A stretch of DNA of 64,000 nt from Psychrobacillus sp. NEAU-3TGS (GTDB lineage: Bacteria > Bacillota > Bacilli > Bacillales_A > Planococcaceae), in contig NZ_JAPNOZ010000012.1 in NCBI RefSeq assembly GCF_029955155.1, positions 999,753 to 1,063,752 of the forward strand, written 5' to 3'. Shown here one piece after another: positions 441 to 59,264 of the stretch (position 1 is its first letter; every line of letters begins with the position of its first letter). The notes beneath the pieces were generated by a model. The model was given only the letters and a program-made list of their open reading frames with translations, was not told where the DNA came from and did not search any database. Both the position numbers and the translations under genes were made by a program.

Positions 441-670
441 GTTTGTTACCTCCCTTTTTAGAGTATGTTCCCTCTTTTTTTAGAAATCCCTTCCCACTCG
501 ACAAACGTTCTTTCTAATGGACAAAACTAGTAGAATGTCGACAAGTTTTTGCAGAATCATAGCTTTGCGCCTTGCAGGTGCCAACTGTACTATCCCGCGA
601 ATGGATCTTATGAAAGCGGCACTTGCGCCAAGTTCTCTACGACAAATTCATTTGAACTATTTAGAAGAAT

Positions 671-780
671 TGATTGCTTTCACCAGCAATTTGGCTGCTC
701 TTGTGCTGGTTTAATTGCTCTCAGGTAAGAAGGGATTGCTTAGGATGATTGGTTGGTTGCCCTAAGCCATTTACTGGATA
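671..780 (+). repeat. 21-bp-period TTGCTYTC array A (5 units)
   Basis: Cores of the form RTTGCTYTC begin at 674, 695 (CTGCTCTT variant), 715, 736 and 757, so spacing is 21, 20, 21 and 21 bp. Between cores the sequence varies. The last unit is the conserved cap, here TTGCCCTAAGCCATTTACTG. The array lies between divergent genes: the small minus-strand gene starting at 440 and recU starting at 1089. Four related arrays occur elsewhere in the window. Confidence 0.75.
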
Positions 781-960
781 TACGTAACGAAAAAAAACGA
801 ATAAGGCGATACTGAGTAAACAAGCAATTTATTTTATTTCGTAGCAGGTGGCGCTCTTACACGCAAGCAGTGAAGGCTCATCTCGTAGAAGGCGTTCTAT
901 AGTAGCAAAAACGCTACAACACACTATTCCTACATTACCCAGAAAAACTTAGAATACACA
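781..960. other. intergenic stretch without a recognised feature
   Basis: No ribosome-binding-site-supported frame is visible on either strand between array A and the degenerate hairpin repeat. A short hairpin, GTAGC-AAAAAC-GCTAC, lies near 903-918. Nothing else stands out. Confidence 0.5.
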
Positions 961-4475: not shown

Positions 4476-4509
4476 GGTCGCCTTGATATTCTTCTTAGAT
4501 GTAGTGGCT

Positions 4510-4619
4510 GGTTGCTCTGATAAAACATTTGGTTGCTTTCATGCATGAAATGGTTGCTTTCGTTAAGAGTTTGATTGCTCTCATCGCTATATTGGTTGCT
4601 CTATTCCAGATATTTACTT
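4510..4619 (+). repeat. 21-bp-period TTGCTYTC array B (5 units)
   Basis: TTGCT cores begin at 4512, 4533, 4554, 4575 and 4596, spaced exactly 21 bp. Units read (T)GRTTGCTYTC followed by about ten variable bases. The last unit ends in a looser cap (CCAGATATTTACTTT). The array sits between the convergent terminators of ponA and ypoC, outside both predicted transcripts. Confidence 0.8.
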
Positions 4620-4703: not shown

Positions 4704-4738
4704 CAAAAAAAGAATGAGCCATGTGCTCATTCTTTTTT
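4704..4738 (-). terminator. intrinsic terminator of the dnaD-nth-ypoC operon
   Basis: Arms GAATGAGC and GCTCATTC flank the loop CATGT, with A7 on one side and T6 on the other. Read on the minus strand it ends in a T run. It overlaps the last codons of ypoC. The symmetry allows bidirectional action. Confidence 0.85.
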
Positions 4739-5011
4739 CTGTGCTCGAAGACGTGCAATTTTTTTCTTCGTTTCTTTGAATAACTCGTCCAATTGCCTAA
4801 ATGCGGTATAATTATGTTTATTGTTACGAATAAAAGTAAAGCGCTCTGCAAAATTAATAGGAGCTGCTTCCCCTTCTTGTTCTACGATTACTTCTAGCAG
4901 CTGAATACCTTGCTCCATTAGTTCCAATCTAGCAGTATCTTTTTCTTTAAAAAGTACCACTAACTGAATTTGCAAATCGTTCCACTTGTCCAATTCATTA
5001 TGCAGTGACAA
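4727..5011 (-). CDS. ypoC: YpoC-like small protein
   Basis: A 94-residue helical protein with a very basic C-terminus (KKKIARLRAQKKE). It overlaps the end of nth by 14 bp, so it is translated from the same mRNA. B. subtilis has ypoC at this position between nth and ponA, but that protein is longer as I recall it. The name therefore rests on position and weak resemblance. Function is not known. Confidence 0.65.
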   Translation of the reverse strand: MSLHNELDKWNDLQIQLVVLFKEKDTARLELMEQGIQLLEVIVEQEGEAAPINFAERFTFIRNNKHNYTAFRQLDELFKETKKKIARLRAQKKE

Positions 5012-11184: not shown

Positions 11185-11304
11185 TATTCCTCAACTCGCT
11201 ATCCATTATGTTCTAAAAAAATTGTACCACATTCGAGAAACAGAAACGAAAAATATGCGAAAAAGAAAAGTTGGTTTTTTAATGATTGAGGAATGAATAA
11301 TTCC

Positions 11305-11392
11305 ATAAAATGGTTAAAGGCAACCAACCAACTGTTGTAAGCAACCAGTTGAAGTCTGAAAGCAACTAAATCAACTCTGAGAGCAACCAGCT
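11305..11392 (-). repeat. 21-bp-period TTGCTYTC array C (4 units, minus orientation)
   Basis: On the plus strand GCAAC (the complement of the core) begins at 11320, 11341, 11362 and 11383, spaced exactly 21 bp. Read on the minus strand the units are GGTTGCTCTCAGAG, AGTTGCTTTCAGAC, GGTTGCTTACAAC and the cap GGTTGCCTTTAACCATTTTA. It lies upstream of dinG and beyond the panD terminator. Confidence 0.8.
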
Positions 11393-11437
11393 GTTAATAA
11401 TTCAAGTTGTTTACTGAGTGAGACGAGGATAACTGTT

Positions 11438-11518
11438 ACAACGTTGCGCAAATGGCCGACAATGTTGCGCATATGCCATTCAACATTGCGCGTTGCGGAT
11501 GTTATGTTGCGCGTTTAT
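11438..11518 (+). repeat. 21-bp-period TTGCGC array (4 units)
   Basis: The hexamer TTGCGC begins at 11444, 11465, 11486 and 11507, again exactly 21 bp apart, in units such as ACAATGTTGCGCATATGCC. It differs in core from the TTGCTYTC arrays but shares their period and lies only 46 bp from array C. No coding frame with a ribosome binding site crosses it. Confidence 0.75.
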
Positions 11519-13715: not shown

Positions 13716-13790
13716 GAGAAAACCAACTAAAAAGCCCTCTATTCCAAAAGTGGACAGAAGGGCAGAAAATGTAGATTCATAGGTTTTCTC
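13716..13790 (-). promoter_or_regulatory. nested hairpin with terminator in the panB leader (candidate attenuator)
   Basis: Read on the minus strand, GAGAAAACC (13790-13782) can pair with GGTTTTCTC (13724-13716). Inside it lies GCCCTTCTGTCCA...TGGAATAGAGGGC (13763-13734), directly followed by TTTTT, the form of an intrinsic terminator. The outer partner lies after the T run, so inner and outer stems could form alternatives. The structure ends 27 bp upstream of the panB start codon. A weak sigma-A-like promoter (TTGAAT-18-TATGAC) can be read just upstream. No ligand class is recognised. It may instead be a fragment of a mobile repeat, since 14 bp (GGAGAAAACCTATG) also occur at 22759. Confidence 0.45.
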
Positions 13791-14205
13791 CGTCCCTGTC
13801 ATATGCAGATCAAGGCAGACTATTCAATTATTTGCTCGTTGAAACTGGTGCAGTTCAACAAAGGATACTGCCCAACGGTTATAGAATAACAGAAAATGAG
13901 TTTGCCGTCCAAATGATTTTACTTAATCTAAAATTTGAATACATAAATGGAAAAAGACCAATATATGTTCAACCAATTAAAAATGAGGTGAAAGAATGAA
14001 TACCATGTTACTAGCATTCATATGCTTATCTTCTTTTCTTAACTTCCACTCCCCGACATCCATCATTACCAACCAAGGATTATTAGACTCTGAAATCTCC
14101 TCTTTCTCAGGTCGAATATCCGGATAACCAGAGTAAAACTTTTGCAAGGAAAGATGAGTTTTATGCCAAGTTAGATAAGAAGCTCTACATGGAATATGCT
14201 TTCTA
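13775..14205 (+). pseudogene. unidentified gene remnant(s), two or three broken frames
   Basis: From 13775 to 13999 one frame without a usable start reads as ordinary protein (YADQGRLFNYLLVE, NGYRITENEFAVQMILLN). Its stop overlaps, as ATGA, an ATG at 13996 that has GAGGTG upstream and opens a 43-codon frame (MNTMLLAFICLSSFLNF) to 14127. A further in-phase-looking tail in another frame (FARKDEFYAKLDKKLYMEY) ends at 14202. The coupling and codon pattern suggest real genes that have decayed. I do not recognise the family. Confidence 0.4.
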
Positions 14206-15410: not shown

Positions 15411-16268
15411 TTGTATTACTACAAAGAAGAATTAATAAATGTTATCGCACCAGACCGACCAGATCCCGCAGCTGCTAAAGTATTACAAGAGACATTAGGT
15501 GGACATTACGGTGAAATGAGAACGATGATGCAATATTTTTTTCAAAGTTCAAATTTCCGCGGGAAAGAAACTCAATATAGAGACTTAATTCGTGGGGTTT
15601 TCCTGGAAGAAATCGCTCACGTTGAACTTGTCCAAAATACCATCAATCAATTACTAAATGATTCAGGTGAATCTGCTGTTCCGGGTAACGCTGGTATCGA
15701 CGGGGCTCCACTAAACGACGCCGTAAGACATGCAAACCCTCACCACTTTATTGTTGGTGCGCAGGCTTCCCTTCCTGTTGACGCAGGTGGTATGCCTTGG
15801 AACGGATCTTGGGTCTATGCACATGGAAACTTGATCGCAGATTTAATGGATAATCTTGTACTGGAATCGACAGGTGTACTGCAAAAAACCCGTATTTATG
15901 AAATGAGTTCCAATAAAACACTTCGAGAAACGCTTGGCTTTCTAATCGTTCGTGATAATGCCCATCAAAATGCATTTGCTAAAGCCCTAGAAACACTCGG
16001 TGTAGATTGGGGTAAACTATTCCCAGTACCGAATTACGATATAAATAAGTATCCAGAGTGTAGAAAGTATGTCGAGATGGGATACCATAATGCACAATTC
16101 AACTTTAGATTGGATCCTACACGCATCGGTGAAATATTCCAAGGTCAAACTCCTAGTAGAAATAACGAAACACTTTCCGTAATAGATCCTCCAGCAGGGT
16201 TTCCGGTACCATTAATGCCCGAAATGCCAAATGAACATAGCCCTGGTCTTCAAGATATGAATAACTAA
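15411..16268 (+). CDS. manganese (dimanganese) catalase family protein
   Basis: Decomposes hydrogen peroxide at a di-manganese centre. Ligands expected for the ferritin-like bundle are visible: Glu35 (GHYGEMRTMMQYF), Glu67 and His70 (EEIAHVE), a Glu in NLVLESTG and His in RDNAHQNAF. It is 285 aa and resembles B. subtilis YjqC/YdbD-type proteins more than the shorter spore coat CotJC. The start is TTG at 15411 after AGAGGAAC. It is monocistronic with its own terminator. Related proteins are often linked to sporulation or stress, but nothing here proves that. Confidence 0.9.
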   Translation: MYYYKEELINVIAPDRPDPAAAKVLQETLGGHYGEMRTMMQYFFQSSNFRGKETQYRDLIRGVFLEEIAHVELVQNTINQLLNDSGESAVPGNAGIDGAPLNDAVRHANPHHFIVGAQASLPVDAGGMPWNGSWVYAHGNLIADLMDNLVLESTGVLQKTRIYEMSSNKTLRETLGFLIVRDNAHQNAFAKALETLGVDWGKLFPVPNYDINKYPECRKYVEMGYHNAQFNFRLDPTRIGEIFQGQTPSRNNETLSVIDPPAGFPVPLMPEMPNEHSPGLQDMNN

Positions 16269-16280
16269 TTATTTCATTAG

Positions 16281-16314
16281 CTCCCTAATTGCCTTCGGTG
16301 ATTAGGGGGTTTTT
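16281..16314 (+). terminator. intrinsic terminator of the Mn catalase gene
   Basis: Arms CCCTAAT (16283-16289) and ATTAGGG (16301-16307) around TGCCTTCGGTG, followed by GGTTTTT. Confidence 0.85.
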
Positions 16315-16483
16315 AATTTAATTCACGCATACAAAGAAAATTTATCGATATTTTTGAAATAATCAAAAAGTTATAGTATTATATGGTATGCTAGTATAAA
16401 TGATTTTTTAATCAATTTTTTTATCTAAATAGAAAGCACTAGTTTTTTCTAATAGAGGTGAAATATGGGCGTACTATCTGAAT

Positions 16484-28090: not shown

Positions 28091-28452
28091 TCATCTAAAA
28101 TCATTGGTTATCCTTAATAGAATATTAAAACTATTACACTCTGTACTAGTCATCAATTATATCTGTATTATATCAGTTTCATAAATTCATAAGAGTTTTA
28201 CATCGTCCAATTAGAAATTCTTCTAGAATTAACTTCTCTAAGGCAAACAGAAAAAGTTGGCGTAGGATTTATTTATACAGTAAGGGATACAGTGTTTTTA
28301 GGAATGGATAGTGAGGCCTCACCGCTTTAGCCATATGGTTCCCCTACTTTACCTCAAGCCTCAAATTATCGGCTGTATTTATTCATTGAATATTAACCAT
28401 CAAGTTCATATTCATTATCAACTCACTTCAAGTAAACTTGTTATTTTGATGA

Positions 28453-28588
28453 TTGGTTGCTTCCAAGTGCCAATTGGTTGCTTTCTCAAGTAATTTGGTT
28501 GCTCATAAACAGATCTAGTTGCTTTCCACATAGAATTGATTGCTTTCAATGACTAATTGGTTGCTCTTATCCATTAACTGGATAAGAG
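28453..28588 (+). repeat. 21-bp-period TTGCTYTC array D (6 units)
   Basis: TTGCT cores begin at 28457, 28478, 28499, 28519, 28540 and 28561 (spacing 21, 21, 20, 21, 21). The cap is the last unit and forms a perfect 10-bp hairpin, CTCTTATCCA-TTAAC-TGGATAAGAG (28564-28588). The array lies between the pdhA promoter region and the ykyA terminator, outside both predicted transcripts. Bases 28091-28452 show no other feature. Confidence 0.8.
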
Positions 28589-28627
28589 TAGGAGCGAAAA
28601 ATTCATCCACAAGGTATATTTCCAAAA

Positions 28628-36162: not shown

Positions 36163-36440
36163 AATGCGGAAGCGCCTATGTTAGAGGAATACAGTCTAAA
36201 TTCACGACATCGTCTCGAAACGACTGCATGACCTGCTTCGTGCAGGCCTCCGACAGGCAAATGTGAAAGGAGTAGGTCTGCAAAGTACGCCACATCCTGT
36301 GGCAAAGCAGACATGACCCGCATCGTGCGGACCCAGGAGGCAGCTCCTCAGCCACCACAAGCGATTTTGTTTGCGACGAGCTTTGCGCAGGAGCAGCTAT
36401 TTCACATTTGACCCCGAGGGGTAAGGCGCTGCAGCTGGAC
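36163..36440. repeat. GC-rich intergenic repeat element GCGGAAGCGCC...GGCGCTGCAGCTGGACA
   Basis: Starts AAATGCGGAAGCGCCTATG and ends TAAGGCGCTGCAGCTGGACA; AGCGCCT (36171) and AGGCGCT (36424) are inverted. This type of intergenic element with these ends is familiar from other Bacillales genomes. It contains TTTGCGACGAGCTTTGCGCA followed by GGAGCA (36370-36395), a 26-bp module that recurs exactly at 59113-59138. It separates the regulator gene from potA. Confidence 0.6.
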
Positions 36441-41797: not shown

Positions 41798-41840
41798 CAA
41801 ACACCCGAAGCAAATACGCTCATTTGCATCGGGTGTTTTT
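41798..41840 (-). terminator. intrinsic terminator behind the VWA operon
   Basis: ACACCCGAAGCAAAT (41801-41815) pairs with ATTTGCATCGGGTGT (41822-41836) with one mismatch. T runs are available on the plus side and a weaker T-rich run on the minus side. It lies 86 bp beyond the end of the VWA operon, so repeat array E would be in that operon's 3' untranslated region. Confidence 0.7.
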
Positions 41841-41842
41841 CA

Positions 41843-41929
41843 TTTGGTTGCTTAAGTAGCAAATTTGGTTGCTCTCTACTTCAAATTGATTGCTTTCAAT
41901 CCTAACTAGTTGCCCTTAACCATTTACTA
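41843..41929 (+). repeat. 21-bp-period TTGCTYTC array E (4 units)
   Basis: Cores begin at 41848, 41869, 41890 and 41910 (spacing 21, 21, 20). The last is the cap TTGCCCTTAACCATTTACT, which runs into the stop codon of the VWA gene on the other strand. The array lies between that stop codon and the terminator at 41798. Confidence 0.8.
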
Positions 41930-44527
41930 CCTTTTCTTTTTTCCTTTCACAAGCTTTTCCACATAACTGGTACTAGCCGTGCTCTCTACCATTTTCTTTT
42001 TCTTGCCTTTTATATTAAATGGTGCGAGTAATTGTCTAAAGCCAAATCTTCGAATCGTAATATCGATGAAAAACAATAGGATTGCCGCCAGGATGAGCAT
42101 TTGCTGTATCGATTGTCGCTCTGAGCTTTTTAAATCGATTGTTCGGAATACTTCAGATGCATCGGTAAGCATTTTGCCGCCCGCTCGATTTGCAATCGTT
42201 TCTAGCTTATTTGTATTTGGCTTTTGTACTTTGTATTCTTCACTATATGGAATAGAAATACCAGCTTGATAAACAGCATCTTCCTCATTGGACACTCGGA
42301 AAAATACAAGACCTGGATCACTTTCCACCGTTACACGTGATTTACCTGGTGCAAGTGGTTCGGATGAAACTGGTAGCTCTTCCCCTTTTTCATTTACTGC
42401 TGCTACTTCTAGAAAAGAAGATTTCCCCGAGGGATCTGTTACTGTGTAACTACCATCGCTGGCTTTTTGAATCGTAAAAGGTACTTCGCTATAAGCTGGT
42501 AACAGACGGGATACCGCAGTGTTCCAAAAGTCTCCCCAATGATTCCATCTAGCAAAATCACCGCTCCATTCCCCAGTAGAATCGGAAGTGAACGCCATTG
42601 TTCTTCCTAGTCCATACATCCACTCTATAAGCACTGGATCTTCTTTTTCACTTTCGGCAATAATGGATGCCGTTTGCTTTGGTGTAGTTGCAATATATGC
42701 GTTCATTTGCGGTACTCCATCTGTAAACAAACTTGTCCAAGCAGCATCGCCATAAATAATCGGATAGAATGGATTATCCTCGATATAGGTTCGGGAAATC
42801 ATCGCCGTCTCCGTAGACATAATGGCTGGGATAGTCGATTCATCCGCTACATCGTAAAATGTTCCTCCGCCCATTTCGGCTAAACTTTCAAGTAGCGCTC
42901 GATCGGCATCTTGCCCAACCGCTACAGTTGTAACGGTGATTAAATCTTTGGAGCCTTCTTCAATTAATGTTTGGTAATCGCCACTTGAAGCGGATTGTCC
43001 ATCTGTCAATAAAATGACATGCTTACGTTGTAACTTTAAAGGTGCCAAGTTTTCATAAGCTAATGCTAAACTCGAGTAAATTTCGGTTCCACCGCCTACT
43101 CCAACGGATAATATGGTGTCTAATGCTTCTTGCTTATTCGAAAGAGGTGCCGTTTCGATTATTTCCCAAGGACGATCATCAAATGCGATAAATCCAAGAT
43201 TATCCCCTTCTCGAAGCATTTCGACTGAACGAGCTGCCGCTTCTTTTGCATATTCGAATTTAGAACCACTCATACTGCCTGAACGGTCCATTACGATAAC
43301 TAAACCGAGCGATGGCATCTGGTGTTTTCCTTTAATCTCCATCTCAACGGGTAATAATTTTTCGATAGGCGTTTTAAAGTATCCACCTAACCCAAAACTA
43401 TTTGTTCCTCCGACCATCATAAAGCCGACTCCGAAGTTTTTCACCGCTTGTTCAATTACGGTCATTTTTTGTTCGCCTACTGCATGGCCTGGTACATTAT
43501 CAAAAATAATCGCATCGTACCTTAAATAATTCGAGAGATCAAACGGCAGTGCACTTGTATCTATCACATCCGTTTGAATGGCAGCTTGGTCAATGACAGT
43601 TGGAATATTAGAGCGATTTCCATCATGTGTGACAACTAAGAGATGAGGAGAACTTTCCACATTTGTTACACTTGTCAATTTATTGTTCTCGATTAATCCA
43701 TCGCCACTCACGACAACTTGAACTTCATATTTTAATAAACCTTCTCCACTAGAAGCATTCCTAAACGTAAAACTATTCGCTCCTTGTTCTAGTGTTATTT
43801 GTTCACGAGATAATAATTGATCGTTTTCATATAGTAGTAGTTCACCAGTTGTATTAGTTGTCGCCTCTAACTTGACATTTAGTTGTTGCTGCTCCCCTTC
43901 AAATGCAATTGGTGGTGTTTCAAATGAAGTAATCGCAACATCCTCAGAAGAAACTCGTTCAAGTTGTACGACATCAATCGTCACGTTTCCACCAGTAATT
44001 TTCACTAGCTCATCTTGTACGGAGCCACTCGTTTCCAATCCATCTGTGAAAAGGACTATCCTTGTCGCTTTCGATGGTTCTACAATTCCGGTTGCTAATT
44101 GTAATGCTCTTGCTATATCTGTGTTACCTGGCGCTTTCATCGGTGTAAAAACAGGTAAATTTACTTCCCCTGCAGTTAAAGCCACCTCCGACTGGAAGTC
44201 TTCCGCAAATGTGTACACACCTACGAGCTGTGTGTTTTTTCGCGATGATAGACTTTGTTCGATAAACGAAGTCACCTGGCTGTCTGTTCCTTGTACAGAA
44301 GCAGATCGATCGACTAAGAAAAGCACCTGTTCCTCTTTAATAGGCAATAAAAGATAAGGATTAGTTAACCCTAAAATTAAACAAAAAATAGCAAGAAGGC
44401 GAAGAAAAAATACCACTCTTCCTTCTTTTCGAAAGACTTTCTTCTCTTTTTTCCATGTCCACATAAAATAAATAAGAATAGGAACTAGTAACAATAGCCA
44501 AAGTGGTTGGTCAACTCGTAAATCCAC
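41927..44527 (-). CDS. large VWA-domain membrane protein, last gene of the MoxR-DUF58 operon
   Basis: An 866-residue protein: two N-terminal membrane helices (about 9-24 and 37-58), a VWA-like domain beginning FLVDRSASVQ (about 70), a Rossmann-type region with VGGTNSFGLGGYF, a second VWA domain with intact MIDAS residues VMDRSGSMSG (about 410), a beta-rich part and a C-terminal helix (about 813-833). This layout matches the BatA/YfbK-like membrane proteins with glutamine-amidotransferase-like fold found beside MoxR ATPases. Its start overlaps the previous gene by 17 bp. Role in family: poorly known, linked to envelope stress. Confidence 0.85.
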   Translation of the reverse strand: MDLRVDQPLWLLLLVPILIYFMWTWKKEKKVFRKEGRVVFFLRLLAIFCLILGLTNPYLLLPIKEEQVLFLVDRSASVQGTDSQVTSFIEQSLSSRKNTQLVGVYTFAEDFQSEVALTAGEVNLPVFTPMKAPGNTDIARALQLATGIVEPSKATRIVLFTDGLETSGSVQDELVKITGGNVTIDVVQLERVSSEDVAITSFETPPIAFEGEQQQLNVKLEATTNTTGELLLYENDQLLSREQITLEQGANSFTFRNASSGEGLLKYEVQVVVSGDGLIENNKLTSVTNVESSPHLLVVTHDGNRSNIPTVIDQAAIQTDVIDTSALPFDLSNYLRYDAIIFDNVPGHAVGEQKMTVIEQAVKNFGVGFMMVGGTNSFGLGGYFKTPIEKLLPVEMEIKGKHQMPSLGLVIVMDRSGSMSGSKFEYAKEAAARSVEMLREGDNLGFIAFDDRPWEIIETAPLSNKQEALDTILSVGVGGGTEIYSSLALAYENLAPLKLQRKHVILLTDGQSASSGDYQTLIEEGSKDLITVTTVAVGQDADRALLESLAEMGGGTFYDVADESTIPAIMSTETAMISRTYIEDNPFYPIIYGDAAWTSLFTDGVPQMNAYIATTPKQTASIIAESEKEDPVLIEWMYGLGRTMAFTSDSTGEWSGDFARWNHWGDFWNTAVSRLLPAYSEVPFTIQKASDGSYTVTDPSGKSSFLEVAAVNEKGEELPVSSEPLAPGKSRVTVESDPGLVFFRVSNEEDAVYQAGISIPYSEEYKVQKPNTNKLETIANRAGGKMLTDASEVFRTIDLKSSERQSIQQMLILAAILLFFIDITIRRFGFRQLLAPFNIKGKKKKMVESTASTSYVEKLVKGKKKR

Positions 44528-58974: not shown

Positions 58975-59264
58975 AGTGAAACTCAATCAGTGGAGGTTTT
59001 TCGACGCACAGGACGTGCTAGTGAGGACGTCGCGCTTTTAGTCATCCTCCACTGATTGTTAATTGTGACCCACACGATGGGGGTCACACAGACGTTGCAA
59101 ACGTTCTTTTATTTTGCGACGAGCTTTGCGCAGGAGCAACACGATGTTGCGTACTTAGTCTGGAATCATTTCATCAGGCGCATGCCAGCAGTGGATCACC
59201 CACTTATCTTTTCGTCTTTCTTGAATCTTGAAGTGGGAGTCTTACTGCCGTTAATGCGGGATAA
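58975..59264 (+). repeat. AGTGAAACT hairpin-tail repeat, copy iii (290 bp)
   Basis: Begins AGTGAAACTCAATCAGTGGAGG. The first hairpin has perfect 13-bp arms CAATCAGTGGAGG (58984-58996) and CCTCCACTGATTG (59046-59058), not the arm sequence of copy ii. The tail (CCCACTTATCTTTTCG..., TTGAATCTTGAAGTGGGAGT, CTTACTGCCGTTAATGCGGG, ATAA) aligns with copy ii. The middle carries the 26-bp module shared with 36370. No gene lies from 58940 to 59516. Confidence 0.65.

Follow-up and report, generated by a model that had tools for sequence, protein, structure and literature searches.

Five arrays of short direct repeats in a Psychrobacillus genome (G000; 4.42 Mb, 16 contigs) are copies of one dispersed, apparently non-coding element of ~110-190 bp, and the TTGCTYTC core of this element is one of many cores that recur at the same 21-bp period in the genus. 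The arrays lie in the window, the whole stretch of 64,000 nucleotides that was analysed (G000:C4:999753-1063752). A preliminary description of this DNA had reported five intergenic sites with four to six core copies each; its 21-bp period, conserved cores with diverged spacers, lack of any sign of recent tandem duplication, gene-independent orientation and recurrence across the genome are all supported here, and what it missed is that the sites belong to a single dispersed element and that many other cores exist. All five arrays are present, and the figure of four to six copies holds when imperfect cores are counted. They comprise 24 cores, exact TTGCTYTC in 12 of these, separated by 19 steps, of which 16 measure 21 bp and three 20 bp. 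Exact TTGCTYTC occurs 18 times in the window (7.3 expected; maximum of 14 in 100 shuffles), and 12 of the 18 matches fall inside the five arrays.

The same spacing holds beyond the window. Searching the whole genome for three exact cores 20-21 bp apart returned 22 matches, with overlapping triples counted, against 0 for the reversed pattern, and two cores returned 58 against 1. When distances of 14-31 bp between successive cores were tabulated over the Psychrobacillus loci and the window, 206 of 271 were 21 bp, 33 were 20 bp and 6 were 22 bp, in a locus set mostly fetched by the same pattern, which overstates the frequency of exact-core steps of 20-21 bp; the core used for this count was looser than the fetch pattern. 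Any value besides 20, 21 and 22 bp occurs at most 6 times, and the reversed core gives 0-3 per distance.

Copy 1 (665..785, plus strand) has five cores at 674, 695, 715, 736 and 757, with steps of 21, 20, 21 and 21 bp, and ends in the right anchor TAAGCCATTTACTGGAT; it lies upstream of recU (plus strand) with a minus-strand ORF (1-224) to its left, a divergent context. Copy 2 (4509..4619, plus strand) has five cores at 4512, 4533, 4554, 4575 and 4596, all 21 bp apart, followed by a degenerate right anchor; no left signature was seen, and the copy sits between a PBP gene (plus) and nth (minus), with a short minus-strand ORF (4727-5011) before nth. Copy 3 (11287..11439, minus strand) bears both a left signature (CGTCTCACTCAGTAAAC...) and a right anchor around four cores at 11379, 11358, 11337 and 11316, again with all steps of 21 bp, and separates the 3' end of panD from the 5' end of a dinG-like gene, both on the minus strand. 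Adjoining it on the opposite strand is a different 21-bp array (11443..11512, plus strand) of four RTTGCGC cores at 11443, 11464, 11485 and 11506, with three steps of 21 bp; GTTGCGCAT-type cores at 21 bp are also found in L233 from the same genome and in L254 from G123. Copy 4 (28406..28593, plus strand), between ykyA and an E1 dehydrogenase gene, opens with the left signature CAACTCACTTCAAGTAAACTTGTTATTTTGATGATTGG, continues with six cores at 28457, 28478, 28499, 28519, 28540 and 28561 (steps of 21, 21, 20, 21 and 21 bp) and closes with a right anchor at 28563-28587 that is an inverted repeat, CTCTTATCCA gttaa TGGATAAGAG; the right anchors of the other window copies are partly palindromic at most. 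Copy 5 (41839..41934, plus strand) has four cores at 41848, 41869, 41890 and 41910, with steps of 21, 21 and 20 bp, and the right anchor AACCATTTACTA. This anchor overlaps the stop codon (41927-41929) of an ORF on the minus strand that encodes a VWA domain and converges with an MFS gene, so that the earlier label of intergenic applies to this array only in part. The anchor segment at 41920-41929 contains the TAG stop, and the element thus forms the 3' end of that frame. A GC-rich second dispersed repeat (GCTGCAGGCGGCGACTCC-like) was seen by eye in several of the same intergenic regions that hold arrays, for example in L163, L173 and L203.

In general, the element begins with a left signature, continues through 1-7 cores and ends in a right anchor, GCCATTTAYTGGAT; some copies are missing one end. 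Each core spans ~12-13 bp (TTGRTTGCTYTCA) and follows the last at 21 bp, sometimes at 20 bp. Aligned copies from Psychrobacillus soli have in common the left signature GTCTCACTCCAAGTAAACTTGTTATTTTAAGAATTGG, ordered units and the right anchor TTGCCCTAAGCCATTTACTGGAT; the second of their units is often 20 bp long, which accounts for the occasional 20-bp steps. With 16 P. soli copies as its training set, an HMM recovered 97 stretches from the locus set, six of which together cover every array of the window (best E per array 2.7e-29 to 5.7e-12): 2.3e-28 for copy 1, 3.3e-12 for copy 2, 1.9e-21 for copy 3, 2.7e-29 and 8.8e-9 for copy 4, and 5.7e-12 for copy 5. A second, sequence-only model with rough E-values, R1, was trained on 31 copies, including copies 1, 3 and 4 of the window; it scored these three at 84.2, 73.8 and 81.6 bits, and the two arrays outside the training alignment, copies 2 and 5, at 50.7 and 54.2 bits. 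With 150 candidates scored per genome, so that high counts are lower bounds, R1 matched at least 105 times in G000, at least 100 in G158, at least 155 in G141, at least 151 in G041 and at least 90 in G117; G153 gave 34 matches, G129 19, G023 13 and five other genomes 3-10. The expectation that the pattern would recur across the genome is thereby borne out. No copy was detected by R1 in 6 of the 19 Psychrobacillus genomes, and the element is therefore not essential to the genus.

Among the matches listed, the same arrays are carried by P. soli, P. lasiicapitis, a strain recorded under the name Bacillus sp. FJAT-22090 and P. psychrodurans, the last with one array whose core is a variant. The TTGCTYTC form was present in 9 of 200 genomes scanned in the family, of which 7 belong to the genus, itself represented by 19 genomes; the reversed control gave 1 match in 200. 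Orthologous sites differ in whether they hold a copy. Over the 1.5 kb downstream of panD, steps of 20-22 bp between cores are seen in G000, G158 and G141 and are absent from 16 of the 19 genomes; G153 has there, by eye, a one-core stretch with an anchor-like end. Such steps are missing from the nth site in 14 of 19 genomes and from the 1.5 kb downstream of ykyA in 16 of 19, with more than one step at the latter in G000 only. Because the arrays all represent a single dispersed element, their similarity is partly due to common descent, and the same holds for part of the conservation of their cores.

The presence and absence of copies at orthologous sites bears on the main rival explanation, that of a selfish dispersed element whose own mobility protein reads the array. 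On this view a non-autonomous mobile element would have the array as its recognition end, with several transposase or recombinase sites lying two turns apart as in Tn7-like ends, and transposition, as the presumed means of spread, would maintain it regardless of any use to the host. The copy number in G000 and the unit order maintained between copies accord with this; 30 of 50 left-end matches are two-ended, with a core and the right anchor behind (1-7 cores between), the remainder having a core only (12), an anchor only (2) or neither (6). The ends TCCAAGTAAAC and, inward from the other side, TCCAGTAAAT also resemble, by eye, imperfect terminal inverted repeats. There is, however, little trace of a target-site duplication: exact flank matches reached at best 9/30 at 3 bp, 5/30 at 4 bp and 2/30 at 5 bp, in a comparison in which TCTCAC on the left is largely constant. 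The transposase comparison across genomes, which covered Mu_transpos_C (TnsB-type) only, found no such gene in the copy-rich G141 and G117 and found it in the copy-free G111 and G078. The selfish reading also leaves unexplained why unrelated cores, described below, have the 21-bp period in common, and we consider it possible but unlikely.

Tn7-like transposon ends, which carry several transposase sites ~22 bp apart, are similar to the arrays in having repeated sites at a comparable spacing. They differ in that no cargo lies between the ends of the 30 two-ended copies (search span up to 330 bp), no clear target-site duplication is seen and TnsB-type genes do not match copy number. A Tn7-like TnsB was rejected as partner of the element, as its gene presence is uncorrelated with copy number. 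An open frame of 719 aa elsewhere in the analysed genome itself contains a Mu_transpos_C (TnsB-type) domain at G000:C11:117099-117296.

The closest known architecture is the STAR element of staphylococci. The Staphylococcus aureus repeat is described as an intergenic, dispersed direct repeat of unknown function (PMC3532100, PMC5294841); at the gapR locus it has a start signature followed by 1-6 motifs with their spacers, the final spacer being a distinctive anchor, and the spacers are kept within lineages (PMC3532100). The Psychrobacillus element resembles STAR in its start signature, several cores, distinct final unit and mostly intergenic position, with some copies lacking one end. Its core, TTG[GA]TTGCTYTCA, differs from the GC-rich STAR core T(G/A/T)TGTTG(G/T)GGCCC(C/A) given there (PMC3532100). 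The same account places STAR spacers at 40-44 bp, whereas the predominant step in Psychrobacillus is 21 bp and many cores occur at that period.

The preliminary description held that the core is kept while the rest varies and that the arrays are not recent tandem duplications. Adjacent spacers in the TTGCTYTC arrays keep their length and are dissimilar, with an identity of 0.37 over 103 pairs compared with 0.43 for random spacer pairs and 0.27 for letter-shuffled ones; the random-pair value is raised by copies with common unit types, and the comparison shows only that neighbours are no closer to each other than to others. Among 206 units, the information content is 1.3-1.8 bits at positions 1, 9, 20 and 21, which are free in the core pattern, compared with 0.03-0.46 bits at positions 11-16, positions 2-8 being fixed by the search pattern and without weight as evidence of conservation. 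The invariant columns in the alignment of 31 copies sit in the cores and the right anchor. Between G000 and G158, copy 2 and its ortholog at the nth-pbp site are identical at 93 of 101 bases, with 8 substitutions and no indels; two of the eight differences are in cores (2 changes in 40 positions against 6 in 61 elsewhere, split by eye), and the cores are not clearly slower to change. Recent tandem duplication of the TTGCTYTC arrays is thus unlikely, and the earlier statement stands.

These measurements also bear on neutral tandem-repeat turnover, in which slippage would make arrays of ~21-bp units that subsequently decay, the period being a by-product. Core number does differ between orthologs, and L251 of G123 and L296 of G129 have near-identical units or larger repeated blocks. 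Neighbouring units alike over their full length, as expected of a VNTR, were not seen in the 103 pairs, though L251 and some other arrays come closer to this. Against turnover stand the dissimilar adjacent spacers, the constancy of core columns while several others vary, and a period of 21 bp that dominates the range of 12-60 bp, with steps that stay at 20-22 bp; we judge this explanation improbable. MmeI-like (type IIL) enzymes cut ~20 bp from their site. They were rejected as makers of the arrays, since the family matched in 1 of 19 genomes only, G096, which is itself without the element.

The 21-bp period is not confined to the TTGCTYTC core. Twenty stretches of 20 kb were sampled from each of four Psychrobacillus genomes, and the recurrence of intergenic 6-mers at a distance of 21 bp was 73, 230, 134 and 90, compared with medians of 17, 17, 19 and 19 over distances of 10-79 bp and a maximum of 26-30 in 40 dinucleotide shuffles. 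Regions with at least three matches numbered 7, 11, 8 and 7 at 21 bp, 1, 4, 2 and 5 at 20 bp, and 1, 2, 1 and 2 at 22 bp. A mechanical array rule applied to 792 intergenic regions, which also catches stretches resembling missed coding DNA (for example L284 and L247), called an array at period 21 in 27 regions, at 20 in 6 and at 22 in none; periods 41 and 53 gave 6 each, the harmonic 42 gave 12, and every remaining period from 12 to 60 gave fewer than 6. A renewed search for period-53 arrays with a narrower rule gave none.

Unrelated cores that carry the 21-bp peak include GTTGCGCAT, CTTGCGATT, TTATGTGG, ATTCGACCGAT and CGCTCGAG, and about ten core families are present in the four-genome samples. 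G000 has CTTGCGATT and RTTGCGC in addition to TTGCTYTC; G123 has TTATGTGG, CGCTCGAG, TTTACTTGC, GTTGCGCAT and others; G153 has cores of the ATTCGACCGAT, CCCCATAAA and GCGACAAA types; and G129 has AACCAACCGATTAT and alternating TTGCTTTC/GGTCTCGCTC. G123 and G129 lack an exact TTGCTYTC triple and give 6 and 19 R1 matches, respectively. The nth-pbp site holds TTGCTYTC arrays in G000, G158 and G141 and a CTCTCGTATAG array in G123, showing that different cores can occupy the same place. Nine arrays, mostly of other core families and with 2-6 units each, have 7-16 of 21 columns constant and 1-9 columns below 60%. Two of the sampled genomes contain longer tracts: in G129, blocks of ~173-194 bp with alternating TTGCTTTC/GGTCTCGCTC at 21 bp recur at L296:796-1542 and 16108-16393 like a higher-order repeat, and in G153, 21-bp units whose cores are of the CCCCATAAA type abound in ~1.2 kb of intergenic DNA (L279:2221-3424).

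Samples of 80 kb from other genera of the family contained 21-bp arrays in G020, G018 and G181 and none in G010, and of six genomes from other families with samples of the same size, G292 gave a single 21-bp call and the remaining five gave no call, the peak being absent or weak. A class-wide scan for three TTGCTCTC cores matched 0 of 398 genomes with a pattern so strict that G000 itself was missed, and the same strict pattern matched 4 of 261 genomes at the level of the order. Candidate tandem TTGCTCTC arrays of other Bacilli, among the matches listed in a very large scan without a control and therefore given no evidential weight, are L013, L042, L060 and L077 (Pseudogracilibacillus), L053 and L120 (Amphibacillus), L081 and L020; nearly all have a period of 20 bp (20-21 bp in L020). 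Eleven stretches in viral contigs are also on record.

Gene context speaks against a promoter function of the arrays. The midpoints of 73 of 78 TTGCTYTC element hits lie outside ORFs of at least 100 aa and 5 lie inside. Where both neighbours of the element are known (n=61), 39 contexts are tandem, 20 convergent and 2 divergent, against a background by gap length of 65%, 25% and 11%, so that the element alone shows a mild convergent excess (20/61, or 33%, against 25%). Arrays of any core with both neighbours known (n=38 in the four samples) divide into 20 convergent, 16 tandem and 2 divergent, against 19%, 58% and 22% by gap length; arrays sharing one intergenic region were counted separately here, and the counts are not independent. 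Divergent regions are avoided in both sets, copy 1 of the window being an exception; a strong surplus of convergent contexts is seen only in the second set, that of arrays with any core. Orientation is independent of the transcription of neighbouring genes, as previously claimed, with 18 elements in the same and 21 in the opposite direction in tandem contexts and a split of 29/32 relative to the majority gene strand.

This lack of strand bias argues against action at the RNA level, whether as a 3' UTR regulator, a terminator helper or an sRNA sponge. Most copies do adjoin the 3' end of a gene on one side or both, the context being tandem or convergent in 59/61 elements and 36/38 arrays. Folding of 40 of the 61 elements nevertheless gave mean z values of -0.01 and +0.28 on the two strands, RNAalifold found no consensus pairs over the 61, and no array in the window matched Rfam at gathering scores, making an RNA element very improbable. 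The Rfam matches in the window lie elsewhere: a pan motif RNA on the minus strand (13786-13874), upstream of ORFs leading to panD, and three Bacillaceae-1 RNAs, two as a tandem pair (36180-36246 and 36263-36331) and one at 59069-59174.

Least probable of all, and scarcely credible, is a coding origin, in which 21 bp would represent seven codons of a heptad-repeat peptide. The period is a multiple of three, and over 110 bp two or three open frames are found in 27 of the 61 elements (44%, against ~19% of composition shuffles), one in 15 and none in 19; this surplus over the shuffles is not fully explained. The 19 elements with all six frames closed stand against coding, as do three of the window copies, 1, 4 and 5, with every frame interrupted by stops; copy 2 has two open frames and copy 3 one. 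The 20-bp steps found in copies 1, 4 and 5 would in addition break any frame.

The explanation we favour, albeit at slightly less than even confidence, is that the 21-bp arrays are phased protein sites on one face of the DNA, situated outside promoters and architectural in role, with the dispersed element as one member of the class. We infer, as the preliminary description did from the two-turn spacing of the cores, that an array may be bound by a DNA-binding protein. The conserved block of 12-13 bp, the freer gap of 6-8 bp and the two-turn spacing common to unrelated cores agree with a row of protein sites along the same side of the helix. Each core would be the site of a sequence-specific DNA-binding protein, the two-turn spacing would set successive sites on the same helix face, and bound subunits could then touch to form a stiff or bridging filament. 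An architectural role, with the arrays acting as nucleoid or topological boundaries that separate transcription units, would be likelier than promoter control, because the arrays avoid divergent promoter regions and favour convergent ends without strand bias. The cost of the protein-site reading is that unrelated cores would need several proteins or a fast-changing specificity.

Plasmid iterons are direct repeats bound by Rep and spaced ~two helical turns apart on one face. The Psychrobacillus arrays are similar in their direct repeats two turns apart and differ in their many chromosomal copies and in their surroundings, as no rep gene is present among the ten proteins beside the five window arrays (recU, PBP, HhH-GPD (nth), dinG-like, panD, E1 dehydrogenase, YkyA, MFS, VWA and one ORF without a Pfam match). 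Like REP/BIME sequences, the element is dispersed between genes in high copy; unlike these palindromic repeats, its array has no detectable hairpin (z ~0 and no alifold pairs), only the right anchor being weakly palindromic. The regular alternation of repeat and spacer is reminiscent of CRISPR, but the unit is 21 bp, the spacers are common to element copies and the loci are many. Intergenic direct-repeat arrays are already known, and the new part is a locked period with exchangeable cores, which was found in none of the open-licence PMC literature searched, where titles and the starts of abstracts held no description of such arrays.

Bacterial intergenic repeats are common, and their mechanism is seldom evident from their spacing. 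An exact two-turn period across unrelated motifs separates a constraint on geometry from a constraint on sequence. It is tentatively proposed, as a rather doubtful extension, that helical phase (21 bp) is the conserved feature and the core is exchangeable, that each family is probably read by its own or a fast-evolving filamenting protein at gene-end boundaries, and that the arrays would constitute a categorically new chromosomal element. The phased-site reading predicts that protein binding would depend on phase. If it is right, Psychrobacillus would harbour DNA-binding proteins or boundary elements of a class not recognised so far; a wrong reading would mean that some process generates repeats by a two-turn ruler, and that would be no less unexpected.
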